Shown here: piece by piece, positions 4,234 to 31,091 of the stretch | Layout: each line of letters begins with the position of its first letter | Position numbering within the stretch: the first letter of the stretch is position 1 | Source of the DNA: an uncultured Clostridia bacterium | Lineage (GTDB): Bacteria; Bacillota; Clostridia; UBA1381 | DNA length: 64,000 nucleotides | Assembly: GCA_944392335.1 (NCBI GenBank) | Contig: CALXWJ010000065.1 | Location: 1 to 64,000 of the forward strand | Reading direction: 5' to 3' | The notes under the pieces: generated by a model | Told to the model about the DNA's origin: nothing | The model's input: only the letters and a program-made list of their open reading frames with translations | Databases searched by the model: none | Program-made: the position numbers and the translations under genes

Positions 4234-5937
4234 TTATGCGTCTTTGTTAAAATCGGCGGGAAGGGTCAGTCTTACGGTCGCAATACCGTCGGAGCAAAGC
4301 AAATTGCAGCTGTACTGTTTCCCGAATATTAATTTTATTCTTGAATTCACATTCAGCAATCCGATATGCTGAGTATCGGGGTAAACATCACTTTCCAGTT
4401 TTTCGTTTATTTCAAACAATGTTTTTTTATCAATATTGCTTCCGGAATTTATAACATCAATGATAAGATTATTTTTGGACAGATAGCTTTTTATTTTTAT
4501 AAATCCTTTGTGAGGTTCGGGCGTTTTCAATATACCGTGCATTATACTGTTTTCAACCAGGGGCTGGAGCATAAATTTAAGCACGGTCATTTCTTCTGTT
4601 TCGGGAGCGATGTCGGTGCTGAAAGTTATCATATTATCATATTTTATGTTCTGTAGTTTTATATATTTTTCCACAAACAGTATTTCCTGTTCCAATTCTA
4701 TTATATATGTTTTTGAATCAATGGTCGCTCTTAACAAATCCGAAAGTGTTTTTATTATGCTTGTTATTTCGGTAGATTTTCCGTTATTTTGTTCCGCATC
4801 CAAAAGTGTGATCACATTTAACGTATTGAACAGAAAATGCGGGTTGATTTGATTTTGAAGGATCATTGTCTGAGCTTTTTTTAATTTATTATATTGTACT
4901 ACCAGTTCCTTTTCATATACGGAATTTCTTTTTGAGAAGGAAAACAAATTTTTGAGCAAACGGCGGAATTCATTTTTTGTGTATCCGGAGGAGTTTATGT
5001 CGTTATTTACAAGCATTGATATCAAGTCTATCAAGGTCATTGAAAAGCTGTTTGAAAGTATTGAGTTTGAAATTATGATTATGACAAAAAAAACCAAAGT
5101 ATACACGATGAGTATTGCAGAATAGGAATTTGTGAAATTGTCATCGATATTATACTGAAAGGCTATGTCAAACAGTGTTTCATCCGGACACAAAACCATG
5201 TTGTTTAACTCACTGTAGATATTAAAATTTTTGTTGATAGCTTCCGTATCGGTTGAATATATTATTTTGTCTGAATTATCGATCAGATAAAAATCCTTGA
5301 TAAAATTGTTTGAAAAATAAAGTATATCGGAAAGATCATCGCAGTCAACGTTATATACAATCATACCCTCGGGAAAATTGTGCATTGTGAGGTTGGTAGA
5401 AAAAGTAAGAAAGTGTTTTTCTTCATTATTAATTGTGGGGGTGCGGTATACTATATTGTTAAGCTCCGAGCCGACCCAGGCTTTGTCGGGGAAATTTTCC
5501 ACAGACGAATTGATGGAGTTGGATAAAATATAGTCAGCGTTTTTGCTATAGATATATATTGAATCTATATAGTTTGATGACAGGCAAATGTTATTGAGAG
5601 AATTATTTATCTGAGAGGTAATGACTGCCAGCTCATTTTTATCGGTATATTCCGTGTAAAAATAATTTTTTACTTCCGCAGAGGATAAAAGTATATTTTG
5701 TGTTGAATAGATAGAGTTGATTACTTCCGTTAATTGTTCCGGAAGCTTTTCGATATAAAATTCATATTTTGTGGCAATTTGAGATTTAAGGTTTAATTTG
5801 TTGACGCTGTAAAGGAATATTATTGTTATGATCAACAGCGGTAATACAAAAAATATTATTAATTTTTTTATATAATATGAAAATATGCTCGATCGATTCA
5901 GCTTTATTAAATTAAATAATGTATTATCCTTTGACAT
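4234..5937 (-). CDS. YesM-type sensor histidine kinase
   Basis: Membrane sensor kinase of 567 residues. A first transmembrane segment (about 24-46) is followed by a roughly 225-residue extracellular sensing region, a second transmembrane segment (about 270-295), a cytoplasmic linker and the His_kinase domain, with the phospho-acceptor histidine in NQINPHFLFNTLNV (about residue 366). A HATPase_c domain follows, with the N-box QPLVENSIMHG. This is the LytS/YesM class that pairs with AraC-type response regulators and senses extracellular carbohydrates. The gene lies 66 bases downstream of its cognate regulator on the same strand, and the pair diverges from the surface-enzyme operon that starts at 7644, its likely target. 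AAGGATTGAG precedes the ATG at 5937. The ligand is unknown. Confidence 0.92.
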   Translation of the reverse strand: MSKDNTLFNLIKLNRSSIFSYYIKKLIIFFVLPLLIITIIFLYSVNKLNLKSQIATKYEFYIEKLPEQLTEVINSIYSTQNILLSSAEVKNYFYTEYTDKNELAVITSQINNSLNNICLSSNYIDSIYIYSKNADYILSNSINSSVENFPDKAWVGSELNNIVYRTPTINNEEKHFLTFSTNLTMHNFPEGMIVYNVDCDDLSDILYFSNNFIKDFYLIDNSDKIIYSTDTEAINKNFNIYSELNNMVLCPDETLFDIAFQYNIDDNFTNSYSAILIVYTLVFFVIIIISNSILSNSFSMTLIDLISMLVNNDINSSGYTKNEFRRLLKNLFSFSKRNSVYEKELVVQYNKLKKAQTMILQNQINPHFLFNTLNVITLLDAEQNNGKSTEITSIIKTLSDLLRATIDSKTYIIELEQEILFVEKYIKLQNIKYDNMITFSTDIAPETEEMTVLKFMLQPLVENSIMHGILKTPEPHKGFIKIKSYLSKNNLIIDVINSGSNIDKKTLFEINEKLESDVYPDTQHIGLLNVNSRIKLIFGKQYSCNLLCSDGIATVRLTLPADFNKDA

Positions 5938-6003
5938 GGCAACTCAATCCTTTTTTACCGAATATATTGTAAAAATCAAAAAATATATTTAGTATAACTG
6001 CTT

Positions 6004-7194
6004 TTAGGAAAAAAACTTATTTCTGTATTCCGAAGGAGAACAGCCGGTAAAATTTTTGAACACTCTGTAAAATGTCCTTTTGTTGCAAAATCCTGATTGT
6101 GCGGCTATTTCCGATATTTTTGTGTTTGTATTTATCAACAGATTCTTGGCTTTGTTGACTCGGAACTGATTTAGGTTGTTAATAAAAGATTCACCGGTGT
6201 ATTTTTTAAACATTCGGCTTGTATTATATGTTGAAAGGGAAAGATAATCCGCAATTTCCTGAAGGGATATATCTGACTGATAATTTTTTTCGATATATGC
6301 CATCGCCGAATTAATATATGGTTCGATGCCCTGCTCCGATGAATGGGGTTTTATGTTTAACGCGTCAACAATCTCATTGGTAAGGTTTTCAAATAATGTC
6401 ACATTGCTTGTGATCGAATAATGTATATTGTGTTTCAATATTGTTTCGCACAGCTTTATTTGCTGTGAGAGAATATTGTTTATCTCATTTACGTGCATCG
6501 GTTTATTTAAAATACATAAAAAAATGATTCTATTATAATTAAAATGAAGAGGGATGAAAAAAATATTGTTATTTTTCAAAATGTTTTGTACGGCATAGTA
6601 GAGCCTGTCTATGTTATATCCCCAGTTGGATATGAGCATGTCGAAGGTTTCTATGGATAATTGAATAATAAACATATTTCCGCTTTGTATATCAAAGGGG
6701 ATTTTATGCAAATTAAATATATTTACCAATTCATTGGATGTTATTTTACCTGAATAAAAGTCGATCAGCCCCTGCTGACATTCAAGCAATTGGAGATTGG
6801 GCTCGTCATTAAAGGAAGTACTTGTAAGCTGATCCACAATACGGCTGCATAAATTGTCTATATCGGCGACATTAATCGGTTTTAAAAGATAGTCAAATAC
6901 ATTGTTTACAACGGCGGCATGTGTATATTCAAAATCCGTATATGCAGTTATAAAAACAAAAATAATATTTTTATATTTTTCACGGATAGCGCAAAGAAAA
7001 TCTATACCGGACATTTGAGGCATAGCTATGTCTGAAACAATTATATCGATTTTGTTGTTTTCAAGAAAATCCAGTGCGGTCTCAGGGTTTGTAAATGATT
7101 TTTTGATCTCTATATTATATTTATTCCATACAAGAAGTGATGTAAGCTTGTTTATTTCATATGGCTCATCGTCCACCAAAATCATGTTAAACAT
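6004..7194 (-). CDS. YesN-type response regulator with AraC DNA-binding domain
   Basis: Transcription factor of 396 residues. The N-terminal receiver domain shows the acidic pocket VDDEP (residues 7-11), phospho-acceptor Asp55 in VSDIAMP, a threonine near 83 and Lys105 in LLKPI. A middle region of unknown fold follows. The C-terminal AraC domain has two helix-turn-helix units (LQEIADYLSLSTYNTSRMFK and SEIAAQSGFCNKRTFYRVFK). It is the first gene of the two-component pair with the kinase at 4234-5937. It transcribes away from the solute-binding protein gene at 7644, and the intergenic region carries paired direct repeats that suit an AraC-type dimer. It probably activates the 7.6-23.8 kb operon in response to a glycan fragment (inference). 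Confidence 0.92.
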   Translation of the reverse strand: MFNMILVDDEPYEINKLTSLLVWNKYNIEIKKSFTNPETALDFLENNKIDIIVSDIAMPQMSGIDFLCAIREKYKNIIFVFITAYTDFEYTHAAVVNNVFDYLLKPINVADIDNLCSRIVDQLTSTSFNDEPNLQLLECQQGLIDFYSGKITSNELVNIFNLHKIPFDIQSGNMFIIQLSIETFDMLISNWGYNIDRLYYAVQNILKNNNIFFIPLHFNYNRIIFLCILNKPMHVNEINNILSQQIKLCETILKHNIHYSITSNVTLFENLTNEIVDALNIKPHSSEQGIEPYINSAMAYIEKNYQSDISLQEIADYLSLSTYNTSRMFKKYTGESFINNLNQFRVNKAKNLLINTNTKISEIAAQSGFCNKRTFYRVFKNFTGCSPSEYRNKFFS

Positions 7195-7436
7195 ATAATC
7201 TCCATTCTGCTGATTCAGTCTGATACACGGGTTTAAATCATATTAAAAATACAGCCGAACAAAGGACATAAATGAGAGTATGTATTTAAAAATCAACAAA
7301 CCGATGTATGTCAGAATCAGGTAGCTTATTGTAATTATAAATTTTCATTTATCAATATCTTTTTATAAAATTTTGTTTATCAAAATTATATCACAGTAAT
7401 TGTTTTTTTTCAAGTGTATAATTGCGAAGGGACAAA

Positions 7437-7470
7437 AAATGTCACTTGCCAAGCAAGAAATGTCACTTGC
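7437..7470 (+). promoter_or_regulatory. Paired direct repeat, likely response-regulator operator
   Basis: AAATGTCACTTGC occurs at 7437-7449 and again at 7458-7470, starting exactly 21 bases apart (two helical turns). An inverted CAAGTG lies at 7411-7416. The second copy overlaps the -35 hexamer of the downstream promoter, the usual position for a class II activator. The divergent AraC-type response regulator is the obvious candidate protein (inference). Confidence 0.6.
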
Positions 7471-7495
7471 GCAGTAAAAAAGAAAATGATATAAT
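7467..7495 (+). promoter_or_regulatory. Sigma-A promoter of the surface operon
   Basis: TTGCGC at 7467-7472 and TATAAT at 7490-7495 are separated by 17 bases, about 150 bases upstream of the lipoprotein start. The -35 is imperfect and covered by the second operator repeat, consistent with activator dependence. Confidence 0.6.
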
Positions 7496-7643
7496 TATAA
7501 AACAATTAGATTTATTATGGGATAAATGTAATTTAAAATATGTGTTTTGATAATAAAACATGCAGATTATATATTTCTACATTTAATATATGAGAAAATG
7601 TTTTCGTTTTATTTTAAAATATGTAAAAGAAAGTGGGTAATAT

Positions 7644-9095
7644 ATGCAAAAAGCAAAAAAAATTTTTTTGCTGCTTTTGATACAAATAATATTGGTGTCT
7701 CTTTATGCCTGCGGCAGAACAAGCGAAACTGCCGGAATGATACCTACTCTGAAATGGTATGTACACGGCGAGGTACAGCCCGATCAGGAAAGAGTGAACA
7801 AAGAGATAAACAAAATTCTTGAAGATAAAGCGGGATGCCATCTTGACATCATATATCTGGATCCGCAGGTATATGCGGAAAAGATGCAGATGCTTATGGC
7901 AAGCAATGATACATATGATTTGTGTTTCACGGGTTATGTAAATACTTATAAAAAAGCGGCCCAAAAAGGGGGATTGCTTGCGCTTGACGGCTATCTTGAT
8001 GATTTCCCGGGAATAAGGGAAGCCATCCCTGAATATGCGCTTGAAGCGGCAAAGATAGACGGAAAGATATATGCAATCCCCAATATCCAAATAATGGCAC
8101 AATGTACGGGATTGTTTATAAATAAAGAATTATTTGAAGAATACGGGCAAATGGATGTCGAAGATATATCCGGCGTTGAGGATGTTGAGCCGTTTCTTGA
8201 ATGGGTAAAAAATACTCATCCGGAGATACATGCTTTCGGATTGGGTGATGCAAGAGGCTGGAAAAAGAAATTCGATTATAAATTGATTTCCGAAATTTGC
8301 CTTGGCGTGGATATAATTGAAAAGGGCGGAAAAATAGAAGCAGTCAGATCTTTTTCAACCCGCGAAAAGTTGTATGAAGCAAAAAAGATAAGAGAATATT
8401 TTGAAAAAGGATATATGCGTCCGGACATTGCGGTATACGACAGTTTTGACAGTGATAATATTTGCCGGACATCCGCAGTATGGCGAGGAGTATATAAGCC
8501 CGGAGCAAGTGCCGAACTGTATGAAAGAACAGGGATTGAAACAATCTGTATCCCCGTTTCTCAGCCGATAATACGCCATGATACCGGAAAGACGACAATG
8601 ACCGGTGTGGGAAGATACAGCAGATATCCGGATAAAGCCATGCGTATCATCGAGCTTATGAATACAGATAAAGAATTATATAATCTGGTATGTTTTGGGA
8701 TCGAGGGAGTCCATTATAAAATGAAAGATGAAAAGCATATTGAAAAAATACCTGATTCGGGTTATAATGTAGGAAATTCATGGATGTTTGGAAAGCAATT
8801 CAATGCTTTATTGCTGGAGGGACAGGAGGATGATGTATGGGAGCAGACAGAAAGATTCAATGAAAATGCCGAGGTTTCGCCGATAATGGGCTTTTCATTC
8901 GACACCACGGCAGTCAGCAGAGAGATCGCCGGGATCGAGACGATATATGAGCAGTATACAGCATTCACAAAAGGGTTTGAACCGTTAGAAGCATATTATG
9001 ATGAATTTGTTTCCGAGCTTGAAAATGTCGGAATCGATAATGTTGTCAATGAAGTAAACAGACAGCTGGAGGAATTTTTTGAATATAAGAAATAA
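7644..9095 (+). CDS. Extracellular solute-binding lipoprotein (LplA/family 1 type)
   Basis: Lipid-anchored sugar-binding protein of 483 residues. The N-terminus is a lipoprotein signal with lipobox SLYAC (Cys23). The mature part has the family 1 layout with an early LKWYVHGEVQPDQE strand and repeated YMR/YEQY helices near the C-terminus, similar to binding proteins of the LplABC oligosaccharide transporters. No LplB/LplC permease gene lies beside it. Instead it heads a co-directional run of secreted surface proteins and faces a two-component system, so it may deliver ligand to a distant permease or take part in sensing by the kinase at 4234-5937 (inference). It is preceded by the promoter at 7467-7495. 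The gap to the next gene is 35 bases. Confidence 0.85.
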   Translation: MQKAKKIFLLLLIQIILVSLYACGRTSETAGMIPTLKWYVHGEVQPDQERVNKEINKILEDKAGCHLDIIYLDPQVYAEKMQMLMASNDTYDLCFTGYVNTYKKAAQKGGLLALDGYLDDFPGIREAIPEYALEAAKIDGKIYAIPNIQIMAQCTGLFINKELFEEYGQMDVEDISGVEDVEPFLEWVKNTHPEIHAFGLGDARGWKKKFDYKLISEICLGVDIIEKGGKIEAVRSFSTREKLYEAKKIREYFEKGYMRPDIAVYDSFDSDNICRTSAVWRGVYKPGASAELYERTGIETICIPVSQPIIRHDTGKTTMTGVGRYSRYPDKAMRIIELMNTDKELYNLVCFGIEGVHYKMKDEKHIEKIPDSGYNVGNSWMFGKQFNALLLEGQEDDVWEQTERFNENAEVSPIMGFSFDTTAVSREIAGIETIYEQYTAFTKGFEPLEAYYDEFVSELENVGIDNVVNEVNRQLEEFFEYKK

Positions 9096-9130
9096 AAAAT
9101 GTCGGGTAAATTATTAAGGAGGAAAAAATA

Positions 9131-10981
9131 ATGATAATAAAAAAAGGATTGTTGACGGTCATTTTACTGACAGCCATAACTGCAAATTCGGCAAATGCAG
9201 CAATAATAAATGAACCTTTGGGAGAAGAAGTGCTGACCGACACCAGCAAAAAAATCACAATAAGCGGAACGATCCCGTTGGCAGATGACAATAATGAAAT
9301 ATACAATATTGTTACGCTTGAGGTTTTAACAAAGGAGGCTTCACAGCAGATCATAAATTCTACACAAGAAAATAAATATGATTTAATAGATGAATATGTG
9401 ATCGATAAAAATAAAATTGAATATATTGCCCAAACCGAGGCGGACGAGAACGGAAATTACAGTTTTGAATTCGTCAAGACCTCAGAATCGGGAGATTACA
9501 TTATAAGAATAGGATATTATGCAAAGAACGATGAAAATGAATATGTTATAACATATAACTACAAAAGCCCCGAGGATCTTATCGGATTATTTGACGAAAT
9601 GGAACAGGCATACAATGCAAAAAACAAAGAAACCTTGAAGGAGGTTTTGAATAAATACTCCGAATCGGATGTAATCAATATTGAAAAATGGAATGAGATC
9701 ACGGCATCCGGTGATGAAGGCCAAATAGATTTTGTGCTTGGCTACATGCTGAATCAAACGCTGCCGGAAAGTGAAGCGGAGATCGAACAATACATAGAGG
9801 ACGCAAGCCTGATCGAAGAACTCAATAAAAAGACCGTTGATGAGGTCAAAGCGGTATTGGAGCAGGAGGAAAAAAGAAAAGAGTTCGGAATTGACGAAAC
9901 GGTATATGCATGGATGATGTCCGAGGATAATACAGAGGTCCAAGATACTATCTTCAAAAAGCTGTCCGGAAAAAATATGGAGAATATGTCAGTCGAAGAT
10001 GTGACGGATCTCATTCATTATACCATAGTATTTGAGGAGCTTAACGGCGTGCTTTGGACAAATATTTTAAAGGTTATTGAAAATAATAATACAGTGCTGA
10101 ATATCGATTTATCGGAACAGTCTGAATTTGAAGGCCTTAACGAAACACAGCAGGATGAGGCTTTGAAGGATTTTAAATCTTCGGTTTCCAAGGCTGTTGA
10201 GATAGAAGATATAAAAGAAATTTTTGATAGAGCAGTTGAAGACGCAAAGGATTCCGGCGGCGGAACCGGAGGAGGTACACAAGGCGGTCCCGGAGGAGGC
10301 TCCGGAACAGGAAGCAGTGACAGCAGAAATGAAAGCCCAAGCTCAAGCGGGAGTATAATTTCATATCCGTCCGGCACAATTCCCAATACTTCAAACACGG
10401 GAACAAATACTGAAGATGAATCTTCACAGGCGGCATTTAATGATATAGAAGATGTTGCATGGGCGGCGGAAGCAATTACGCGTCTTAAAGAAAAAGGTGT
10501 CTTGGCAGGAAACGGCGACGGAAGCTTCAAACCTCAAGACCCTGTTACGAGAGAAGAATTTCTGAAAATGGTTATAGAGGCATTGGCTTTAAAAAATGAA
10601 TCTGAGGACGTTTCTTTCAGCGATGTCGACAAAAACAGCTGGTATTATCCTTATATATGCGGAGGAGTTTATTATAAATTAATAAACGGAATGGAGGACG
10701 GAAGCTTCGGAATAGGTCAAAGTATTAAAAGAGCTGACGTCGCGGTGATCTTGGTAAGATTACTTAAAATGTACGGAAAAGAATATACATGGAAAAGCAT
10801 TGTGTATAAAGATGTAATAAAAGAAGAATTGGAATATGCATATGACGCGATTTACAGTGTTTCCGAGGCGAGGCTTATGACCGGAACGGGGGATGTTACT
10901 TTTGAACCGTTCAAAAGTTTGACCAGAGCGGAAGCGGCGGTCATTATTGACAGAGTAATAACATTGCTTGAAAATAACTGA
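9131..10981 (+). CDS. Secreted S-layer-homology domain protein
   Basis: Exported wall-bound protein of 616 residues. A signal peptide (MIIKKGLLTVILLTAITANSANAA) is followed by a beta-rich N-terminal region, then a helical acidic region (about 150-375). A glycine/serine-rich linker (about 378-430, GGGTGGGTQGGPGGGSG) leads to three C-terminal SLH repeats (about 435-616, each with a TREEF/KRADV/TRAEA core) that bind pyruvylated secondary wall polymer. It contains no recognisable catalytic motif, so it is probably a scaffold or binding protein. AAGGAGG lies eight bases before the ATG. It is the second gene of the operon and its stop lies 16 bases before the next ATG. Confidence 0.85.
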   Translation: MIIKKGLLTVILLTAITANSANAAIINEPLGEEVLTDTSKKITISGTIPLADDNNEIYNIVTLEVLTKEASQQIINSTQENKYDLIDEYVIDKNKIEYIAQTEADENGNYSFEFVKTSESGDYIIRIGYYAKNDENEYVITYNYKSPEDLIGLFDEMEQAYNAKNKETLKEVLNKYSESDVINIEKWNEITASGDEGQIDFVLGYMLNQTLPESEAEIEQYIEDASLIEELNKKTVDEVKAVLEQEEKRKEFGIDETVYAWMMSEDNTEVQDTIFKKLSGKNMENMSVEDVTDLIHYTIVFEELNGVLWTNILKVIENNNTVLNIDLSEQSEFEGLNETQQDEALKDFKSSVSKAVEIEDIKEIFDRAVEDAKDSGGGTGGGTQGGPGGGSGTGSSDSRNESPSSSGSIISYPSGTIPNTSNTGTNTEDESSQAAFNDIEDVAWAAEAITRLKEKGVLAGNGDGSFKPQDPVTREEFLKMVIEALALKNESEDVSFSDVDKNSWYYPYICGGVYYKLINGMEDGSFGIGQSIKRADVAVILVRLLKMYGKEYTWKSIVYKDVIKEELEYAYDAIYSVSEARLMTGTGDVTFEPFKSLTRAEAAVIIDRVITLLENN

Positions 10982-10997
10982 TAATGGAGGTAATGGG

Positions 10998-13757
10998 ATG
11001 AAAAAGAAGATAGTTAGTTTTATTTTACTGCTTACATATGTCTTTACACTAACCGTTTTTGCGGAGGATACATCAAATTATTCAAAGGAAATCGAGTATT
11101 TGTCGGCATATGGGATAATGTCCGTTCTGAGCGACGAGGCAATGGCTGAAAAAATAACACAGCAAGAGTTCAGAAATGCTGTTTCGGTAATTGTTAACGG
11201 CGATGAACAAAGGATGAACGAGATAGACAGCTTCGGGGAAGTTTACCAGAGCGACGGAGAAGTTACTCTTTTAAAAGCCGTAATGACATTGGTAAAATTG
11301 ATAGGGTATGATAATTTGGCAATCCAAAACGGCGGAACATATAACGGATATATGAGTACCGCGGCTCAAAACGGGATTCTTGACGGAATAAAAGGAACAA
11401 GCGAGTCGGATACCATAACCTATGCGCAGGCAGGAAAGATGATATACAATACCCTGCAGGCTCCTTTGGTTACATTCAGCTTTGAGGACGGAAAAGCCGT
11501 ATATAAGGTTGATAAAAATAAAACGCTTTTAACAGAAGAAATGTCGGTATATGATGTAAAAGGCATTGTGACCGCGACATCCGACTATGCATTGCCTGGA
11601 TATTCAAAAACACGTCAGGGTGTAATTATGATAGGCGATAATGAATATGAAATATCACAGACATCCATGAACGGTTATTTCGGATGCGATATTACCGCGC
11701 AATATCAATATAATGAGGATGACGATGTTTCAAGGATCATAAAAATGGATCTAAGATATTCAGATACGGTTTTGAATATTGATCCGAATGATATTGAAAG
11801 CTTTGATGCTTCAGGAAGATATGTGTACATAGATCCGACAACGGACAGAGAAAAAAATGCAGTAATAGAACAGGATGCAAACTATTATTATAATTATGAT
11901 TATTTGAGTGCAAGCACACCGATCAATAATATAAATTTTATGCCTCAAACAGGGTCTGTTAAATTGATTGATAATGATAAAAACGGAAATTATGACATTG
12001 TTATTATTCTTGATTATGAAGTAAGAGTCGTTGAGCTGGCTGACAGTGAATTTATTTATTCAAAATACGGTGAAGGCTCGGTTGAAATAACATATGATAC
12101 TGTAATAACAGATTCAAGCGGCGCTGTGTTTAATGATGCTTCGGTCTTATCCGAAAATGATGTTGTGCATGTTATTTTTGAAGAAGGAAGCAATAAAGCA
12201 AGATATGTTTACATATATACACAGTCGGTTACGGGCAGAATAACTTATATAGACAAAGATGTAGAAAAGATAATCATAATAGATAATGATAAAGAATACA
12301 CAATCCCCGACAAAAAGTATGACCTTTGTGCAATATTGAATCCAAACATGAATGTCACTCTTTATCTTGATATGAACAGCAATTTTGCAGGATATACAAT
12401 TACACAATCCACTGACTGGGCTTATGGATATATGGTAGATATAAAAACATACTTGTCGGAGGATACCGGAGAAGATGTATTATCCGTAAAGCTTTATGAT
12501 GTAAATGAACGAAAATTAAAGACTCTTTTCTGCCGCGAAAGGGTAAAGGCTGAAGGAATAACATATAAAAGAGCGGCATACCAGACGCTGATTGACAATC
12601 TTGGTCTTTATGAGTATATGGAGGACGGAACAAAGAGAGTATGGGATCAGCTTATAAGATATAAAGTAAATAGTGATGGGCTTATAACAGAAATGGATTT
12701 TGCACCCAATGCTACTGATTATTCCGCGATAATTAATATAATTCCGCCCAGCACTGCTACAGGCCTTTATAAATTAACCGGCTCAATGTCTTATCTTGCT
12801 TCAAATGATGCTTCTACAATAGCGTCGGCAATGGACAGAACACGTTCAAGACTGCCTTATTGGGCAAATTCACATCCGATATATCATAAAAGAATAATTT
12901 TATCTGAAAACGGTCAGGCAAAATATAATACCTGGCATCCTGAAATAACGGTCAGCAATGATACTGTTGCGCTTTTTGTCCCGCAGGACAGGAATAATGA
13001 AGAAGGATACAGAGTATCAACAGCAGGAGTAAGCAGAAGCGAACCTCAGCTGGTTATAGATTTCTTTACGGTGGCAGAAGAATCGGAATCAACAACCATT
13101 ATGGTCATATATGACGGGGACGGAGCCCCAACATCCGATTCGGCAGGCGGTGTAAATAATGATGTAAACATTATAGATCCTCTTTCAACTGCCTATATCA
13201 TAACAGATATAAATGAAGTTTATCTTGAAGACAGTGAACTGGTAACTCATCAAATTGATTTGTGCGGAGTAAACGGAGAAATAACTCTTTACACAAAAAA
13301 TGATCAATGGGTAGATACCGTTGGCATGAAAGAGGGAGATTTCGTAGCAATGTCCTACAGCGGACAGTTTATTGATGCAATCGATATACTGACATCGGTT
13401 GATGAATTTAAGGACTATCAAAATCCTGATTTCAAAAATATGACGGCAGAGGTATTCGGTGACAGAGGGCAGATCGTGGGATATGCATATGAAAACAGAG
13501 ATGGAATAGGACTGGTTACCTCAGATCCCGCGAATATAAACAATCTGACCTGGGGAGAGCTTACGGTAATGCCTATACAGACCGCCGCGCCTATGTATGA
13601 GTATGACGCGAAGAACGGTACCGTTACGGCGGCGGACATAAGCTGTATAAAATGGTATCAGAACACGCATGATCTGGAGAACACTTCGATCGTATATACA
13701 GGTTATCAGAATGCAGATGCAAAATATACGTTTGTAATAAATAATTTATTTGAGTAG
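10998..13757 (+). CDS. Secreted protein with degenerate N-terminal SLH repeats
   Basis: Exported protein of 919 residues. The ATG at 10998 is used rather than an upstream in-frame ATG inside the preceding gene, because GGAGG (10986-10990) is well placed for it and the signal peptide MKKKIVSFILLLTYVFTLTVFA begins there. Residues about 25-165 look like two or three diverged SLH repeats (YSKEIEYLSAYGIM, GEVTLLKAVMTLVKLIGYD, ITYAQAGKMIYNTL). The rest is a long beta-rich region with repeated DNDKxGxYD-like turns and no catalytic motif I recognise. It lies in the middle of the surface operon and probably forms a wall-bound structural or glycan-binding protein. Confidence 0.8.
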   Translation: MKKKIVSFILLLTYVFTLTVFAEDTSNYSKEIEYLSAYGIMSVLSDEAMAEKITQQEFRNAVSVIVNGDEQRMNEIDSFGEVYQSDGEVTLLKAVMTLVKLIGYDNLAIQNGGTYNGYMSTAAQNGILDGIKGTSESDTITYAQAGKMIYNTLQAPLVTFSFEDGKAVYKVDKNKTLLTEEMSVYDVKGIVTATSDYALPGYSKTRQGVIMIGDNEYEISQTSMNGYFGCDITAQYQYNEDDDVSRIIKMDLRYSDTVLNIDPNDIESFDASGRYVYIDPTTDREKNAVIEQDANYYYNYDYLSASTPINNINFMPQTGSVKLIDNDKNGNYDIVIILDYEVRVVELADSEFIYSKYGEGSVEITYDTVITDSSGAVFNDASVLSENDVVHVIFEEGSNKARYVYIYTQSVTGRITYIDKDVEKIIIIDNDKEYTIPDKKYDLCAILNPNMNVTLYLDMNSNFAGYTITQSTDWAYGYMVDIKTYLSEDTGEDVLSVKLYDVNERKLKTLFCRERVKAEGITYKRAAYQTLIDNLGLYEYMEDGTKRVWDQLIRYKVNSDGLITEMDFAPNATDYSAIINIIPPSTATGLYKLTGSMSYLASNDASTIASAMDRTRSRLPYWANSHPIYHKRIILSENGQAKYNTWHPEITVSNDTVALFVPQDRNNEEGYRVSTAGVSRSEPQLVIDFFTVAEESESTTIMVIYDGDGAPTSDSAGGVNNDVNIIDPLSTAYIITDINEVYLEDSELVTHQIDLCGVNGEITLYTKNDQWVDTVGMKEGDFVAMSYSGQFIDAIDILTSVDEFKDYQNPDFKNMTAEVFGDRGQIVGYAYENRDGIGLVTSDPANINNLTWGELTVMPIQTAAPMYEYDAKNGTVTAADISCIKWYQNTHDLENTSIVYTGYQNADAKYTFVINNLFE

Positions 13758-13772
13758 AAAGGAGGAAAAGAC

Positions 13773-15551
13773 ATGAAATTATTAAAATTATTAACGGCTG
13801 TTAATCTTGCGGCGTCAATTGGTATTTGCGCGTCTACGGCGGCTTTTTCGGCGCCGATGAGTGAATTTGTTGTGTTTTATGAGGATTTTTGTTCAAGCGG
13901 TGTTGCAAGCACTGTTTTGCCAAATGAAAAAGACTGGTATTGCAGAGCAGAATATTTAGACGACGGTGAGTATAAGGAAGCAAACAGAACAGGAACGAGA
14001 TTCAGGGCGCTTGTTTCTATATCCGATGAAGGAACGAAGATCAAAAACAGTACAGCTGATTTTAAAGCATGGCTTTACAAAATGTATAACAATAAGTATT
14101 TGTCTTCATTTCTTACCGACAATTATTATATTGAAATGAATATCAGAGTGGATGATTATATTTCGGGATTTGACGGCGAAAACAGATTTTCAGCAATGTT
14201 TCAATTCTCACAGCAAGCCGGAGATGATTTAATAAAATTTTCGGTTGAAGAGGACGGGATAAAATATCTTTCCGACAGCGGATGGCAGACTTATACCGAT
14301 TTTACAGCGGGAAATGAACTGCACACATATAAACTTGAAGTTTCATATATGAACGCAACAATGTATATAGACGGCAATGAGGCTTTCAGCTATACTTTGC
14401 CTGTATCGGATGAATTTACTCATATCAGATTCGGCTGCGGCAGCAGAGGAGAGTTCGATCAGGGACAATGCCTTGTTTCAGACATGAAATTTGCAAAGCA
14501 GTATGAGGACAGCGTTATAATTGATGAGCTTAAAGATTTTGAAAAAGTATCGTCTTATGAAAATGTTACGTTGCTGGATAAGAGTGAAAGATACGGAACG
14601 GCTAACGGTATAGGCTTTAAAAGTGCAGGCTATATTGAATATGATTTAACAGATCAGTCGGGGCTTTCCGATATTATGCTTAATTTCACATCGGAAACCG
14701 GCGCTTATGAAGATGTAAAGATAACAGGATGGGATATTTTTGGCAATGAAATTGAAATATCAAAAGAGCTGTTTGATATGATCGATTTTGCAGGAAGGCT
14801 TTCCGATGAGACTTCCATAAGACGGACGTTCTGTACCAATGAAGATTTTGAAGAATTCATAAGTGCAAACTTTTCAATTACAAAAATCAGGATCGAGTAT
14901 ACTGGAAATACAGACGATGCCCTTGAACTGTTAAATACAGAGATCACATATACCGATGCGCAGTATCCGTATTTTGTAGGTGTTACGGCAGGGTCAAAGG
15001 AAATTACGGACAATATGATTTCCGCAGCGGCCGGGACAGTAGAGCTGGAATTCAGCTGTGATGCAAGAACGATTGATAATAAAGACGGAGATATTAGACT
15101 GTTCTGTGAGGATGAAGAGGTAGTGACTGTAATATCCAAGGAGGGCACAAAAATAATTATAAAGCCCGAAAACGGATTTTTGTACGGTAAAAATTATAGG
15201 CTCACATTGTCGGATTCACTTGTAAATTCGGGAATAAGGGATATGCCGAGCGAAATTGCTTTTGCGACATATTCTTGTGACTATGAAGCAAAAGACGCTG
15301 TATTTGACCAGGGAAGCTGCAACTTTACGCTAAAGAGTAATTATATAGATGATAGAAGCGTTGCGGTAATAATCGTATCATATAAAGACGGCGCGATTCT
15401 TGATATGAATTCAATAGAAGTCAACATTAAAGCCGGAGAGGAAAAACAGATAACAACGGGAAGTATAGTAACAGAGGATGCAGATGATGTCGCTGTGATG
15501 ATATGGGATAGTCTCAGATCCAGAAAAGCACTTGTAAGAACTATTAGATAA
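13773..15551 (+). CDS. Secreted LamG-like protein with C-terminal beta modules
   Basis: Exported protein of 592 residues, beginning with the signal peptide MKLLKLLTAVNLAASIGICA. Residues about 80-240 look like a concanavalin/LamG jelly roll (YYIEMNIRVDDYISGF, HTYKLEVSYMNATMYIDG). A carbohydrate-binding-like middle part (DKSERYGTANGIGFKSAGYI) follows, then an Ig-like domain of the SbsA type (about 410-500, YGKNYRLTLSDSLVNS). A short terminal beta module ends VAVMIWDSLRSRKALV, and variants of it recur in other proteins here. No catalytic residues are recognised, so a glycan-binding accessory role is likely. AAAGGAGG precedes the ATG. The gaps to its neighbours are 15 and 17 bases. Confidence 0.8.
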   Translation: MKLLKLLTAVNLAASIGICASTAAFSAPMSEFVVFYEDFCSSGVASTVLPNEKDWYCRAEYLDDGEYKEANRTGTRFRALVSISDEGTKIKNSTADFKAWLYKMYNNKYLSSFLTDNYYIEMNIRVDDYISGFDGENRFSAMFQFSQQAGDDLIKFSVEEDGIKYLSDSGWQTYTDFTAGNELHTYKLEVSYMNATMYIDGNEAFSYTLPVSDEFTHIRFGCGSRGEFDQGQCLVSDMKFAKQYEDSVIIDELKDFEKVSSYENVTLLDKSERYGTANGIGFKSAGYIEYDLTDQSGLSDIMLNFTSETGAYEDVKITGWDIFGNEIEISKELFDMIDFAGRLSDETSIRRTFCTNEDFEEFISANFSITKIRIEYTGNTDDALELLNTEITYTDAQYPYFVGVTAGSKEITDNMISAAAGTVELEFSCDARTIDNKDGDIRLFCEDEEVVTVISKEGTKIIIKPENGFLYGKNYRLTLSDSLVNSGIRDMPSEIAFATYSCDYEAKDAVFDQGSCNFTLKSNYIDDRSVAVIIVSYKDGAILDMNSIEVNIKAGEEKQITTGSIVTEDADDVAVMIWDSLRSRKALVRTIR

Positions 15552-23844: not shown

Positions 23845-24034
23845 ATGCATAAGAAAATACATTCTATACCTGAATAAAATTATTGGATAAAATATTTTTC
23901 GGATTAAAATCAAGGTATGATGTAAAAATCGGAGGTGATCAATAAAATATTTTGCCCGTACATGGAAAATGTTGGATTAAACCTATTAACAAATTTTAAT
24001 TCAAAAAAATTTTAAAATGAAGGGAAGAAAAAAA

Positions 24035-27000
24035 ATGAAAAAAATTATAAGCGTAATTACAACCCTTGTAATGCTTGCATCATTGGTTCCGCAGATGGTA
24101 TCGGCAGCTACGCCCGAATCAGGGACATTAAACGAAACCGTAGGGTATACTTTTGACAGTGAGACAAAAACCCTGACTATTACAGGTACCGGCGCCATGC
24201 CTGATTATTCGGGAAACAGCGATGACTCACGTCCTTGGGACAGTGATGCAAATATTGAAAGAGTAATTATCAGTGAAGGTATCACCACAATAGGAAACGG
24301 TGCATTTGGAGACATGATCGAATTAAGGTATGTTACAATACCTGAATCGGTGACAAAAATAGGCGACCGTGCTTTTCAGTCAAGTTACATGATTCAGAGC
24401 ATGGGATTTGCAAAAGACGCAAAAGTAACATATATCGGTACATATGCTTTGGGATGGTCACAGCAGTTTACTTACATAACGATCCCGGAATCGGTAACAA
24501 GTATCGGATATTCAATGTTTGAAGGACAAAATAATATTAAAAAGATCATTATTCCGGGTGAGAACACACCGCTTCCGGACAACTTCATTTTTCCTGCCGG
24601 ATGTAAATTTTATGTAAAGGAAAATTCTTTGGCTTATGAAACTGTAGTAAGCAATGAATGGGATTATGAAATTATTACCGCGGCGGGAAACACCGGTGAT
24701 AAGAATTTCCAGTGGTATATTACCGACAGCGGCGAACTCAATGTAATAGGCTATGAATACATGAAGGATTATTCGGCATCAGACCCTGCTCCATGGACGG
24801 AATACAGCGATATTATCACATCTATAGTTTACGGTGACAGAAATTCATTATATCAGCCGTATAATGTGGGTGCATATGCATTCAGCGGACTCACAAATGC
24901 AGATGAAATCACATTTAACTGCAATACGGTTACAGAAATAGGAGAGAGCGCATTCAGCAATACCCCTGTAAATACAGTTTCACTTTCGGATAAAATAACA
25001 AAAGTCGGTGCAAATGCATTTGATTCGGCAGCAACGGTTGTGGCAAGAGGAATAGAAACGGATGTTGCACAAAGCGCCGTAGGTGCGGATACAACGGTTT
25101 ATTGTTATCCTGACAGTACGTGGAAAACAGCTTTTCCTGATGCTTTGGACATAAAAACATTCAAAGTTTTGGGTATAGGGAACAGCTTTACAAGAGATGC
25201 AACCGAATATTTATATAATATATCGGAACAGGCTCTCGGAGAAGAAGCAGCGTATACCGATATTGTTATAGGAAGGGCCTACAGAGGCGGAGAAGATATA
25301 TTCGGACACTGGTATCTGATAAACGGTACCGAAGATAAAACAAATTCAATATGGACATATAACACTTTCTCTGCTTTTGGAACTACCGGAAAAGAAGTGT
25401 ATATTGATAAAGCACTTTCAGACCAGGATTGGGATTATATATGGTTCCAGGGATATTACAACAACACGAACCCTGACAGGAACGAGGTTGTAGGAAGCTT
25501 CGGACAGGATGATTATGCATTGAAAGGTATTGTCGATTATGTAAAAGAAAAAGTTCCTGATGCAAAAACCGCATATTATCTTGTATGGCCGAGAAACTGC
25601 GATTATCTGGACAATGATCCTGAAAACATAAATAATGTTTCGACAAGTGCCGAAATGTATGAAAAGCTTATAACTAAAGCAAATCAGGTTATGGAGCTGA
25701 CAGGATCAGACGGGGAAAAACTGTTTGATTATATGCTTCCTGTGGGAACGGCCATTGAAAATGCGCGTACAAGTGCATTGAATAATATCAATTATGAGCC
25801 TGATACGGCAACAAAATATACCAATCTTCAAAGCGATGGCGTTCATTTGAATCCTGTAGGATGTACCATTGCTTCAATGGCAATTTTCAGAACACTTACA
25901 GAGGGAAAATCGATTGACAATATAACATTTAAGCCTACAGAGCAATATCTTGATGAGTATCTTGATATGGCAAAGGAAGCGGCAAATAATGCATATTTAT
26001 ATCCGACCGTAACAACAGAGGCAAGTGCGGCAAATAAATATGATCCGCTTGATGTTCTTGACACAAATGACTATATGGATGTGCTTTGTGATTATATAAA
26101 TAATAATGACGATGTATTGGTTCCTTTCCAAGCATCAAATGAGGTAAAAATCCAGAAAGTTACGGAATATGTAAATGCAAAGGCACAAGAAGACCCGGAT
26201 GAGATTTTAGCGGGTGCGGACTTGAATTATTCCGTAGGATATGATGAGGCGCAGCAGCAGTATTATATTATATCAAATGTAGGCTATCAGACAATTAAAA
26301 AATATTTTGATGTAAATATTGTAGAAGATATTGATCCTGAAATTACAGCCCTTGATAAGGCTATGGAGGTCGTAACAGACGGTCTTATTCCGCTTGAGGC
26401 AAACAGCACATGGGAAAGTAACAGTTCAACGCAGGAAGAAAGAACAGCGGCTGTTCAAAAATATATAGACGCATATCTTGTGGGAGATCTTTCAAGTCTT
26501 ACTGCCGAGGCTACATATAATAACGGAAGCTATGATGTGGAATTTACAAATGCCAGAGGATTAAAGCAGACAAAAACACTTTCGAATATGGAATTTGTTT
26601 ATACATTGGAGGCGGCGAATGAAACCTTTGACGGTTATGCCGATATTAATGATCTTTCAACTACTTTCAAAATAGATAATCCTTATGAATCATATTATGA
26701 TGCACAAAACGGCGAGCTTACAATAAAATCGCAGGTAAATATCCGTAATCAGGTTATAGGCTCTGTTAATCAGTTTGAATTTAACGATGGTTCTATAAAT
26801 GATGCGTATATTTATGAGGTAAGATTCAGAGTAAATGATTACCTTGATCCCGAGGTTATAGACGATACACATTATTCCGCAGGTACACGTATCGCAAACG
26901 GTTTATATGATGTTTTATTTACCGTTGAAAAGGACGGAATATACTATAAAGCCGCAGACGGCTGGAATATGATAAGCCGTGAGGGTGATAATGAATATCA

Positions 27001-28777
27001 CACATATAAGGTTATAGCAAAAGAAGGCGGATATGTATCGTTATTTGTTGATAGTATCAAACTTCTTGATTATAACGCGCCGATAATTACAAGCCCTGAT
27101 TATTGGAGCACTGATATTGTATCATTGGGATATAAAGCAGGCGATAAAACAAGTACAACAGAAACCACTCCGGCATCCATGACAGTGGATAGCCTGAATC
27201 TGAAAAATATCTATGAGAACGAAGTATTTAAGTTAGATGTATCTGTTGATCCTTCCAAAGACGGAAGAAACAATTTGTTTGGCTTCACACCGGGAACGGT
27301 AAGCACAAAGACAATACCGTATTATTCATATGAGTTTACCGGATGGGAAGCAACGGAAGACACCTATGTATATGTAAAATTGCCTAAAAATACCTATATA
27401 ACAAATGTCAAGGCATTCGGTTCAGATACTGCATATTATCAGGATAATCTTTCGCTCCCCGATACGGAAATAAGACTGTACAGATACGGATACGGAAATA
27501 AAACTCCGGAATCTGTTTTGGAAAATGCAGGAGTAAACGTTTCAAATAATATACTCAGAACGGTAATGTGGACAGATGTATGGGGACAAAGATTTACTTT
27601 GAAGAACAAAGACGCCATAGAGGCCGGAAACTATAATATGGTACTTGTAAGGGTCCAGGCACCGAGAGCAGATGGTAAGGGGGTTGCCTTATTACAGGAT
27701 CTTGAAATTGAATACAAGTATTTTTATGATACCGAGGATGAAATAATAATTGCCGATGACATGGAATATCAGACGCCGGGTGATTATGAGGAAGTTCCGG
27801 GCGTTCCGGGATATTACGGATACCAGACCATTACAAACAACAATGTAACAGCTTATGACTGGCAGTTTGACAGCAATTATTTCCCTCTGTCACCCGATAA
27901 TCTTACCGATACTGTTGAATGGTACGGAAACAACAACAGCAGATGGGCTTACAGACCAAATGATCAATTTAACGGTGTTATGCTCTATACATGGTTCGGA
28001 CCGACTGCTACAATATCAATAACTAAACACAATAAGCCCGATTTCGGACCGAATTATACATTAAGCGCCGACTTCCTGTTCAATAAGGAACGGGCATTAG
28101 AAGATCCTCATGCGGACAAGGGAGATTTCATCACATATGTAAATAATGACGGCTATAAGCTGTGGTTTACACCTTGTGTAAATACCTCTGAAATAAGATA
28201 TCTTGAATACAGACTGTTTGGTGATACATGGTCAACTGCATATGCATATGCGGATCTTCCCGCTGAAATTCAGGATAAAGTATGGCATGAGTATAAGGCT
28301 GTTGTTAACGGCGATCAGGCAACATTGTACTTTGACGGAGTGGAAGTTGTAACCTATACAATGCCACCGATGACTGCTGAGGATGTTGAAACAATGTCCT
28401 TTAGCGCACAAAGTGATAAGGAAAACAACGGTCAGTATAAGGTTGCATTGAAGGATGTTCTTGTTACAAGACCTGCCGGACAAACAGAACCGGCTGATGA
28501 ATATATTGAGGGTATTACAGAAGCAGGCGCACAGGCGGCTTATGATGGCGCAAATGTAACAATCACATTCAATGAGAATGTTACGGGTCAGGCATTTAAT
28601 GCATACATCGCAGTATATAATGAAAATGATAAGCTTATTGCAGTTGATGCGGAGGATATTGCAATGACAATTGACGGCACAGACGTTCTTTCGGTACCGT
28701 ATACGGAAGGACAAAAATTAAAGGTATTATTCTGGAATGAACAGATGACGCCTGTACTCGATATGCTGACAAAATAA
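24035..28777 (+). CDS. Giant secreted BspA-LRR / SGNH (DUF4886-like) / LamG protein
   Basis: Exported protein of 1580 residues. The ATG at 24035 is chosen over 24017 because AAGGGAAG lies seven bases before it and the signal peptide MKKIISVITTLVMLASL starts there. Residues about 40-200 are BspA-type leucine-rich repeats (VTIPESVTKIGDRAFQSS). About 370-640 is an SGNH hydrolase of the DUF4886 kind (GIGNSFTRDATEYL and SDGVHLNPVG supply the serine and Asp/His blocks). Two LamG-like jelly rolls follow (about 880-1030 and 1330-1480). The C-terminus ends with the shared beta module (LKVLFWNEQMTPV). It lies 262 bases after the main operon and is closed by a strong terminator, so it may be a separate unit under the same regulator. 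A secreted carbohydrate esterase is the likely role. Confidence 0.83.
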   Translation: MKKIISVITTLVMLASLVPQMVSAATPESGTLNETVGYTFDSETKTLTITGTGAMPDYSGNSDDSRPWDSDANIERVIISEGITTIGNGAFGDMIELRYVTIPESVTKIGDRAFQSSYMIQSMGFAKDAKVTYIGTYALGWSQQFTYITIPESVTSIGYSMFEGQNNIKKIIIPGENTPLPDNFIFPAGCKFYVKENSLAYETVVSNEWDYEIITAAGNTGDKNFQWYITDSGELNVIGYEYMKDYSASDPAPWTEYSDIITSIVYGDRNSLYQPYNVGAYAFSGLTNADEITFNCNTVTEIGESAFSNTPVNTVSLSDKITKVGANAFDSAATVVARGIETDVAQSAVGADTTVYCYPDSTWKTAFPDALDIKTFKVLGIGNSFTRDATEYLYNISEQALGEEAAYTDIVIGRAYRGGEDIFGHWYLINGTEDKTNSIWTYNTFSAFGTTGKEVYIDKALSDQDWDYIWFQGYYNNTNPDRNEVVGSFGQDDYALKGIVDYVKEKVPDAKTAYYLVWPRNCDYLDNDPENINNVSTSAEMYEKLITKANQVMELTGSDGEKLFDYMLPVGTAIENARTSALNNINYEPDTATKYTNLQSDGVHLNPVGCTIASMAIFRTLTEGKSIDNITFKPTEQYLDEYLDMAKEAANNAYLYPTVTTEASAANKYDPLDVLDTNDYMDVLCDYINNNDDVLVPFQASNEVKIQKVTEYVNAKAQEDPDEILAGADLNYSVGYDEAQQQYYIISNVGYQTIKKYFDVNIVEDIDPEITALDKAMEVVTDGLIPLEANSTWESNSSTQEERTAAVQKYIDAYLVGDLSSLTAEATYNNGSYDVEFTNARGLKQTKTLSNMEFVYTLEAANETFDGYADINDLSTTFKIDNPYESYYDAQNGELTIKSQVNIRNQVIGSVNQFEFNDGSINDAYIYEVRFRVNDYLDPEVIDDTHYSAGTRIANGLYDVLFTVEKDGIYYKAADGWNMISREGDNEYHTYKVIAKEGGYVSLFVDSIKLLDYNAPIITSPDYWSTDIVSLGYKAGDKTSTTETTPASMTVDSLNLKNIYENEVFKLDVSVDPSKDGRNNLFGFTPGTVSTKTIPYYSYEFTGWEATEDTYVYVKLPKNTYITNVKAFGSDTAYYQDNLSLPDTEIRLYRYGYGNKTPESVLENAGVNVSNNILRTVMWTDVWGQRFTLKNKDAIEAGNYNMVLVRVQAPRADGKGVALLQDLEIEYKYFYDTEDEIIIADDMEYQTPGDYEEVPGVPGYYGYQTITNNNVTAYDWQFDSNYFPLSPDNLTDTVEWYGNNNSRWAYRPNDQFNGVMLYTWFGPTATISITKHNKPDFGPNYTLSADFLFNKERALEDPHADKGDFITYVNNDGYKLWFTPCVNTSEIRYLEYRLFGDTWSTAYAYADLPAEIQDKVWHEYKAVVNGDQATLYFDGVEVVTYTMPPMTAEDVETMSFSAQSDKENNGQYKVALKDVLVTRPAGQTEPADEYIEGITEAGAQAAYDGANVTITFNENVTGQAFNAYIAVYNENDKLIAVDAEDIAMTIDGTDVLSVPYTEGQKLKVLFWNEQMTPVLDMLTK

Positions 28778-28909: not shown

Positions 28910-28931
28910 TAAAAAATTTAGGAGAGAAAAA

Positions 28932-31091
28932 ATGAATATTTATGTACAAGCAAATAAGAATACAGCCGGCGACGGAAGCTTTGAGGCGCCGTTTAATACA
29001 ATTGAAGAAGCAAGAGATTATATCAAAAATACAGATGAAGAAGATATTACGGTAAACATAAGAGGAGGGCGGTATTTTATAAAAAATACGATCCGTTTTA
29101 CAAAGGATGATAAACCCGCAGTATATAAGGCCTATAATGATGAAAAGGTAATATTTGACGGGGGGATCATACTTGACAATTCTCTGGCAAAGAAAATAAC
29201 GGATAACAGTATAAAAGAGCGAATAATAGAAGAAAAAATAAGAGATGAGGTATATGAACTGGATTTATCCGGATATGATATAGAGCTTGCGGAGTACGGG
29301 ATAAGGGGATTTAGAAGAATGCATATACCGTCTGCAAACGAATTGTTTATAAATTCAAAACCGCAAAAGGTCAGCGAATACCCGAAAGAGAAAAAATTTA
29401 TTCCGATGAACAAGGTCATAGAGGGCGGAAACGATCTTATAAACGGACATGATTTTAATTTAAAGAAGCCGATAATAGGATATGTAATTGAAAGAGGCGA
29501 CAAATGGGCAAAGGCAAAGGATGCGTACATCACCGGTTATCTTTGCGTCGGTTATGCGGATGATACGATAAAAATTGAAAAAATAGATACAAAAAACAGA
29601 ACATTAACACTGTCCACATGCTCGCGTTTTTCAATTAAGGAGGACACGGAAACAAAATGGAAAATCTTAAATTTACTCGAAGAAATTTCAGAGCCGGGAG
29701 AATATTATATTGATATTGAAAATAAAAAATTATATTTTTATCCGCCTCAAGATATAGATATGTCGTCCGCGTTTCTTCAGCTTTCGGTGCTGGATACACC
29801 AATGATTTCATTTATCGGAGCAAAAAATATTAAATTCCAGGGAATTGTATTCGAAAATTCACGGGGATCGGGTGTTTATATAGGCGGCGGAGAAAGCGTT
29901 AACATTGATAATTGCACATTCAGAAATTTGGGAATGATTGCAGTACAGGTTGGACAGGGGACGTCGATCGTCCCGGAAGAAAAAACAACCGGACACGGAG
30001 AATATTTAGAAGGGTTTGAGCCGATACCTCAGCACGAAATGATCGGTGACTGGCACGGATATTTGTATGCATATGCAGCATGGGACGGGAACGGAGGACG
30101 GGATCATCTTATTTCAAACTGTGATATGTATGATCTTGGTTCCGGCGGCGTGCTGCTGGGAGGGGGAAACAGAAAAAAACTTATTCCCGCCAACAATACG
30201 GTATATAATTGCCATATTACACGAATAAACAGACTTGACGTCGCCTCGAAAAGCGCCGTAAATATATGGGGAGTGGGCAATAAGGTAAGCCATTGTGATA
30301 TGCATGATTTGAGCGGTACATGTATATATATTCACGGGAATGACCATATAATAGAATATAATAAAATACATGACGTTGTAAAAACAATTACAGACGGCGC
30401 CGCGATATATCTTGGCAGAGATCCGAGTGAAGTAGGTAATGTCATAAAACATAATTTTATATATAATATAAAAAATCCGCACAGTTATGATTTGTATGGA
30501 TATACCGCAATTTATTTTGACGATCATGCTATATACAATGAAGTATACGGAAATTATTTTTACGATATAGTACAAAGAGGCCCGTTTTTCTTCAGTACAA
30601 TTCATTGGAACGGGGGAGGCGGCACATCGGTTGCAAATAATATTTTTATAGACTGTTATCCCGGAATGGATCCGAACACATATGATAATTCCTATGAGGT
30701 TATGCATAATACCGATTTTCAAAATGGAGATATATTTATAAAACGTGTATCGTCAAAGGATGAAAATGACTTGTCGGGCGTGGATGTTACAAGCGATATC
30801 TGGAAAGAAAAATATCCGTATTTATATGATACATATATGAATGATTTTGTGCAGGAAACAAGAAATTACAATAATTTTGTCTGCTGCGGCCAGTATCAGA
30901 ACTTTGTTGATGAAAATCCAAGCAATCTCAATTTTAAGCTGAGAAAGGATTCATATATGTTTTTCAAATATGCAAGAGTGCATGACAGAATAAAGGGCTA
31001 TGACGGTGAAAAGGTGTATTTCAAAGATATTGATTTTTACTCCATAGGATTGGTTAACGACAAAAGGGCTCTTTTGCGGTATGGGCTGTAA
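28932..31091 (+). CDS. Leaderless right-handed beta-helix protein
   Basis: Paralogue of the two secreted beta-helix proteins (15569, 19117), 719 residues long. It starts directly with NIYVQANKNTAGDGSFEAPF and has no signal peptide, so it should be cytoplasmic. AGGAGAG eight bases before the ATG supports this start. It has a DUF1565-like cap, then the shared motif EISEPGEYYIDIENKKLYFYPP (split across about 250-275), then beta-helix turns rich in N/H (IIEYNKIHDV, NVIKHNFIYNI) to about residue 570. It lacks the C-terminal LamG and terminal beta modules. It could process imported oligosaccharides as a lyase or glycosidase. It is separated from the upstream gene by a terminator and is probably transcribed alone. 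Confidence 0.8.
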   Translation: MNIYVQANKNTAGDGSFEAPFNTIEEARDYIKNTDEEDITVNIRGGRYFIKNTIRFTKDDKPAVYKAYNDEKVIFDGGIILDNSLAKKITDNSIKERIIEEKIRDEVYELDLSGYDIELAEYGIRGFRRMHIPSANELFINSKPQKVSEYPKEKKFIPMNKVIEGGNDLINGHDFNLKKPIIGYVIERGDKWAKAKDAYITGYLCVGYADDTIKIEKIDTKNRTLTLSTCSRFSIKEDTETKWKILNLLEEISEPGEYYIDIENKKLYFYPPQDIDMSSAFLQLSVLDTPMISFIGAKNIKFQGIVFENSRGSGVYIGGGESVNIDNCTFRNLGMIAVQVGQGTSIVPEEKTTGHGEYLEGFEPIPQHEMIGDWHGYLYAYAAWDGNGGRDHLISNCDMYDLGSGGVLLGGGNRKKLIPANNTVYNCHITRINRLDVASKSAVNIWGVGNKVSHCDMHDLSGTCIYIHGNDHIIEYNKIHDVVKTITDGAAIYLGRDPSEVGNVIKHNFIYNIKNPHSYDLYGYTAIYFDDHAIYNEVYGNYFYDIVQRGPFFFSTIHWNGGGGTSVANNIFIDCYPGMDPNTYDNSYEVMHNTDFQNGDIFIKRVSSKDENDLSGVDVTSDIWKEKYPYLYDTYMNDFVQETRNYNNFVCCGQYQNFVDENPSNLNFKLRKDSYMFFKYARVHDRIKGYDGEKVYFKDIDFYSIGLVNDKRALLRYGL

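Follow-up and report, generated by a model that had tools for sequence, protein, structure and literature searches.

The genome of an uncultured, gut-type Clostridia bacterium (GenBank assembly GCA_944392335.1) encodes, about 40 times over, a pair of adjacent surface-protein genes that lie next to candidate polysaccharide-degrading enzymes. We analyzed the pair in a 64,000-nucleotide stretch of contig CALXWJ010000065.1 (hereafter, the window), where it forms part of a locus at positions 4,234 to 31,091; its first gene encodes a protein with canonical surface-layer homology (SLH) repeats, termed here A, and its second an SLH-like protein, termed B. The original prediction, made from the letters of the window, had described this locus as a Gram-positive polysaccharide utilization system in which SLH proteins scaffold lyases and esterases at the wall. 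Its broad lines hold, but it is too narrow, as the recurrence of the SLH/SLH-like pair is more notable than the single locus. The explanation we favor, and hold to be slightly likelier true than false, is that the bacterium maintains some 40 glycan loci, each with its own wall-anchored A-B platform near which the enzymes are held.

Recurrence of the A-B pair

A genome search with the window B as query gave 28 matches, almost every one of which immediately follows an SLH protein similar to the window A, and a profile of 34 B sequences raised the family to 40 members (38 strong and two weaker), which are strongly divergent (about 20% identity). Thirty-eight of them lie in the loci that we examined, which were selected for SLH or B genes, and in 31 of these 38 the next gene upstream, in the same orientation, is an SLH gene, nearly always within 60 bases. 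As for the remainder, one is fused to an SLH gene, three are separated from one by a single gene, one has an SLH gene downstream and two have none; the two B genes outside the examined loci comprise one (C1:15408) whose coordinates place an SLH gene shortly upstream and one, on contig C72, with none seen. In total, B is paired with an A-type SLH gene in 37 of 40 cases, nearly always in the order A then B. Because SLH or B genes were the basis on which loci were picked, the fair null is one that shuffles genes inside each locus, and in 2000 such trials the number of B genes with an SLH gene directly upstream averaged 4.9 and never exceeded 12, compared to the 31 observed; in the same comparison, 3 B genes had an SLH gene directly downstream versus 31 upstream.

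The two proteins also diverge in parallel. Within this one genome, Mantel correlations with the B core were 0.57 for the part of A that precedes the SLH repeats and 0.43 for the SLH repeats of A (permutation p 0.0002), compared to 0.27 between B and the nearest beta-helix protein, indicating that A and B diverge as a unit more than they do with their enzymes. The fused A-B pair is a single 1438-residue protein (L042:4219-8535, contig C37), and the very long SLH/B-core proteins of L101 and L111 may be similar fusions.

Beyond this genome, B was present in 41 of 41 genomes of close relatives and, at an E-value of 1e-20, in 173 of 391 genomes of the class, where full-length matches above 400 bits occur in many families and matches near 1e-30 may represent SLH alone. 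A scan of named genomes, using a seven-sequence B profile, gave 61 loci, mostly from gut metagenome-assembled genomes of Clostridia. An SLH gene stood upstream of 39 of the 47 B genes from other Clostridia, and their surroundings included solute-binding proteins, permease-sized genes, YesM/YesN regulators and large surface proteins. Isolates carrying B included Acetivibrio sp. MSJd-27 (24 matches) and Lachnospiraceae bacterium MD329 (9 matches), and a first look at a relative of the same family (G009, 4.1 Mb) yielded 409 B candidates, probably a still larger expansion. No account of such an SLH pair was found in the literature searched (on SLH, Gram-positive polysaccharide utilization loci and Monoglobus), which covers subscription papers thinly and therefore gives a weak sign of novelty.

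Architecture of A and B

The window A consists of a signal peptide, an FnIII/Ig-like domain (residues 34-145), a helical domain (147-375), a Gly-rich linker and three C-terminal SLH repeats (436-616) with three TRxE-like motifs. Its AlphaFold2 model has a predicted local distance difference test score (pLDDT) of 76, and the SLH part aligns with 3PYW at Z 21. The window B has a signal peptide, a degenerate trimer of three SLH repeats and then a chain of small beta-barrels (AlphaFold2 model, pLDDT 75); its SLH fold aligns with SpaA-SLH at Z 13 (VIA-align), its barrels match OB-like barrels at Z 7-9, and it harbors no Pfam match and no TRxE-like motif. Among the 34 paralogues, 28 match SLH in Pfam, and a Pfam scan of the family gave, besides SLH, three weak single matches, leaving a core of ~750 residues that belongs to no Pfam family. 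Comparison to PDB structures returned SLH and OB-like barrels only for B and no family for the helical domain of A, an absence from the list that does not amount to a new fold. A match of B to the DDB1 beta-propeller (Foldseek against PDB) had a template modeling (TM) score of 0.1 and was taken as noise.

Across the loci, the last SLH repeat of A ends 3-13 residues before the C-terminus and 2-3 TRxE-like motifs are usually kept, while such motifs are absent in 15/36 and 25/44 B proteins. Since A retains its SLH repeats and TRxE motifs and B is often without them, A would be the anchor and B would be held at the wall at least partly via A. The genome encodes one CsaB, making a pyruvylated wall ligand plausible. 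Of the two proteins B is the conserved member, A differing in length and acquiring enzyme modules. A secreted protein of ~300 residues with a Cu_amine_oxidN1 domain follows directly after B in several loci (L046:8703-9605, L047:8900-9874 and L063:12332-13321), and this domain is also found on many of the locus enzymes.

A conserved B beside a variable A that gains enzyme modules, canonical SLH repeats on A and often not on B, and the co-divergence of the two would also suit an arrangement in which B binds or hands over glycans, as a functional counterpart of SusD, with A serving merely as a wall anchor and the enzymes lying free in the wall matrix. Yet no carbohydrate-binding fold was recognized in B, and OB-like barrel matches at Z 7-9 lie within the aligner's background, and so we regard this arrangement as rather unlikely.

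The window locus, its enzymes and a shared C-terminal module

The locus comprises the following features:

4234-5937, minus strand: YesM-type sensor histidine kinase, 567 amino acids (PF06580, 2.6e-20; HATPase_c, 4e-4)
6004-7194, minus strand: YesN-type response regulator, 396 amino acids, first gene of the divergent pair (PF00072 receiver, PF12833 AraC helix-turn-helix)
7195-7643, no strand: divergent regulatory region separating the regulator gene from the surface operon (intergenic, flanking genes point apart)
7644-9095, plus strand: DUF3502 solute-binding lipoprotein of the ABC sugar importer type (PF12010, 1.4e-15; lipobox LYAC)
9131-10981, plus strand: protein A, SLH protein (three SLH repeats; PF00395, 6.5e-32)
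10998-13757, plus strand: protein B, SLH-like protein (predicted SLH fold, ~40 paralogues)
13773-15551, plus strand: LamG-like secreted protein, 592 amino acids (no Pfam match; bears the shared C-terminal module)
15315-15545, plus strand: shared C-terminal module, copy 1 (iterated profile)
15569-19099, plus strand: GH141-like beta-helix protein, D474 and D511 (profile alignment to 5MQP/BT1002)
18872-19084, plus strand: shared C-terminal module, copy 2 (iterated profile)
19117-23772, plus strand: GH141-like beta-helix (D487, D527) with Cu_amine_oxidN1 (residues 958-1065) and SGNH/GDSL esterase (residues 1175-1352)
24017-28777, plus strand: LRR_5, DUF4886 SGNH-type esterase and LamG-like domains
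28544-28765, plus strand: shared C-terminal module, copy 3 (iterated profile)
28932-31091, plus strand: leaderless GH141-like beta-helix protein (D488, D530)

All ten genes are open frames at the coordinates of the original prediction, and its gene list (YesM/YesN, lipoprotein, SLH, SLH-like, LamG-like, three beta-helix and LRR/SGNH proteins) was borne out by these frames together with Pfam and fold matches. The gaps of 15-35 bases that it described between the six surface genes from 7644 to 23772 hold provided that B begins at the ATG at 10998; an in-frame TTG lies upstream, at 10968. The last two gaps are wider, 244 bases before 24017 and 154 before 28932. Position 31091 is probably the end of the locus, because the genes that come directly after it (31477-35592, plus strand) encode a LysR regulator and a methionine-type importer made up of an NlpA lipoprotein, an ABC ATPase with a NIL domain and a permease. 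On the other side, beyond the regulators, lies an esterase-like gene (3021-4052, DLH/AXE1) whose membership in the locus is uncertain. Further on, 35850-36998 (minus strand) encodes a 382-residue protein with no Pfam match at 1e-5, and Rfam and tRNA scans of the 64-kb window gave no matches.

Single beta-helix proteins matched solved structures at about 1e-3 or not at all. A profile of 32 relatives, made up of the three window proteins and others from further loci of the same genome, matched best 9RX2 (1.6e-88; function not stated), then BT1002 of GH141 (5MQP, 6.1e-44) and then a GH120 xylosidase. The catalytic residues of BT1002 are reported as Asp523 and Asp564 (PMC5593877, PMC12786026, each citing the original work), and the columns aligned with them hold aspartate in 32 of 32 relatives. 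By our own count along the 5MQP chain, read from the alignment, its two aspartates are residues 528 and 569, each number being higher by 5 and the spacing of 41 unchanged. Pfam Beta_helix was matched by 28 of the 32, and GH141_M, at E-values up to 0.01, by 15. In window proteins GH141_M scored 18.6 and 16.8 bits, under the curated cut-off of 27, and so we call them GH141-like and not GH141. They share with GH141 (BT1002 5MQP, Xyn141E) a right-handed beta-helix, an N-terminal motif, a GEWY/LYYYP segment and the catalytic Asp pair, but are distant from it (the E-value of 6e-44 is that of the family profile only) and have 9RX2 as their nearest solved chain, and any GH141-type activity of theirs is putative.

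The original prediction that no large protein matches a characterized enzyme family was therefore wrong for the beta-helix proteins. Its proposal of lyase and pectin activity also found no support, the nearest characterized family being GH141, which includes fucosidase, xylanase and fucanase activities (PMC12786026), a range that allows no substrate to be named from sequence. A pectin lyase reading was rejected, with 9RX2, BT1002 and GH120 matching best and pectin/pectate lyases near 1e-4; a PL6 alginate lyase matched the profile at 1e-12. SGNH motifs are kept in the esterase domain of 19117-23772 (GGS 1177, AVND 1239, DGVHP 1344) and in the DUF4886 domain of 24017-28777 (GNS 388, DGVH 607), and so the locus would hold candidate polysaccharide-degrading enzymes in both its GH141-like proteins, which carry both aspartates, and its SGNH domains. 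The original prediction is thus partly supported: a polysaccharide-use locus with SLH wall partners agrees with the aspartates, the SGNH motifs, the solute-binding protein, YesM/YesN and CsaB, whereas lyases and pectin lack support and the locus has no sugar permeases of its own.

Three window proteins end in a common module of ~70 residues. An iterated profile found it in 58 locus proteins, at the C-terminus in 46, just one of which bears SLH, and corresponding loci in other Clostridia contain the module too. Neither PDB nor Pfam gave a convincing match for it, and no Pfam hit recurred in a second member. That the module docks or binds the wall is our guess. At the far end of the window, a BspA-type leucine-rich repeat protein bearing the same module (62051-64000, minus strand) adjoins a protein that combines SLH repeats with a family-3 solute-binding domain (60122-62002, minus strand).

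A proposed surface platform for glycan use, its alternatives and known systems

Among 110 neighboring proteins, all drawn from loci whose selection rested on SLH or B, 39 matched Beta_helix, 17 GH141_M and 12 GDSL, and a few matched GH95, GH42, GH3, GH4, melibiase, fucosidase, heparinase or carbohydrate-binding module (CBM) families, including CBM6. Genome-wide proximity tests are free of that choice: 50 of 61 genomic beta-helix open reading frames have a B no more than 10 kb away, although such stretches make up 23% of the genome at most (p 4e-22), and 76 of 90 genomic copies of the C-terminal module lie within 20 kb of one, under a null that ignores the general clustering of surface genes. 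Such clustering is the core of a different explanation, in which the A-B pairs would serve as alternative cassettes for an S-layer or adhesin, every pair making its own coat or attachment layer, and glycan enzymes would adjoin them because surface genes cluster in general. The SLH trimers on both A and B, the resemblance of B's string of small beta-barrels to a coat protein, the strong divergence of the copies and the adhesin-like LRR_5 neighbors all fit it; however, the neighbors are mainly GH141-like, GDSL, GH and CBM proteins, and elsewhere solute-binding proteins, permease-sized genes and YesM/YesN adjoin the pair, fitting nutrient use. We consider such cassettes unlikely.

Under the platform explanation that we favor, A would anchor in the pyruvylated wall polymer by its three canonical C-terminal SLH repeats, its helical and FnIII-like parts extending outwards, and B, usually a degenerate SLH trimer with a beta-barrel string, would partner it to form a locus-specific platform. 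The GH141-like hydrolases and the SGNH esterases that the locus secretes would act there, and the common C-terminal module may retain many non-SLH surface proteins at the platform. Products would pass to the solute-binding lipoprotein and be imported, here by permeases encoded elsewhere, while YesM would sense the glycan and YesN turn the operon on. A bolder version, in which the module docks on A-held B and the three together constitute a new surface assembly of gut Clostridia, with tens of locus-specific non-cellulosomal platforms per genome, appears doubtful to us.

Several points weigh against the platform. Three B genes, on C63, C72 and C82, are unpaired, and the co-divergence of A and B can be explained as well by joint duplication alone. 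The window B may not be wall-bound, as it has no TRxE motif at all, and both models have a predicted TM score (pTM) near 0.48, a middling confidence at which the domain arrangement of A and B is not reliable. A permease census found no sugar permease in the locus, the nearest permease after it (34888-35592) being part of the NlpA/NIL methionine-type cassette, and ~20 permease genes in the whole genome, from which it follows that import is no general part of the unit. The same direction is taken by the choice of loci behind the neighbor set and by the clustering that the proximity null ignores. Finally, binding of A to B, docking of the module, the import route, induction by glycan and the substrate are steps that we infer.

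The locus might instead be an ordinary Gram-positive polysaccharide utilization locus (gpPUL), of the kind described for Roseburia or for the SLH enzymes of Paenibacillus, with SLH anchoring alone. Regulator, solute-binding protein, secreted enzymes and SLH anchoring are all known from those systems (PMC5320581, PMC4765114). The gpPULs of Roseburia and Eubacterium rectale are defined by an enzyme, a transport system and a regulator (PMC5320581), and resemble the loci described here in clustered polysaccharide-degrading enzymes (candidates only in our case), an AraC-type regulator and ABC-type uptake. The window locus has the regulator (the YesM/YesN pair, 4234-7194) and, of a transport system, the solute-binding lipoprotein only. 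Here, in contrast, the SLH pair is constant and a complete transporter often missing, and PMC5320581 never uses the term SLH. Paenibacillus sp. JDR-2 has 77 SLH proteins, 29 of them in carbohydrate processing (PMC4765114), and resembles our bacterium in its many SLH proteins and in oligosaccharide uptake by transporters; its SLH repeats are described on multimodular enzymes, whereas the window enzymes had no SLH in the Pfam scan and the anchor is a separate two-gene unit, found ~40 times and with a core absent from Pfam. An ordinary gpPUL seems to us rather unlikely, to about the same degree as a glycan-handling B.

In concept the platform resembles the cellulosome, where enzymes that have a C-terminal module in common assemble on a surface protein anchored by SLH. 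A cellulosome was rejected for the locus: three weak cohesin matches were found genome-wide, on contigs without a B gene (C14, C87). One of the proteins with a weak cohesin match also bears the C-terminal module.

In the polysaccharide utilization loci of Bacteroidetes, SusC and SusD are divergent surface proteins encoded side by side, a conserved pairing that each glycan locus has and that recurs tens of times per genome. The gathering of glycans and enzymes at the surface of Gram-positive fiber degraders is far less clear than it is for Bacteroides, and a conserved multi-copy pair found across many families of Clostridia would mark and count glycan loci, even those whose enzymes fall outside known families, and offer a defined protein pair for binding tests. 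The likeness lies in genomic habit only: neither A nor the B family matched a TonB-dependent porin or SusD-type lipoprotein family in Pfam, and A and B are Gram-positive wall proteins whose part in transport, if any, is hypothetical. To summarize, these data suggest that the A-B pair is a previously undescribed Gram-positive equivalent, in its genomic habit, of the Bacteroides SusC/SusD pair.

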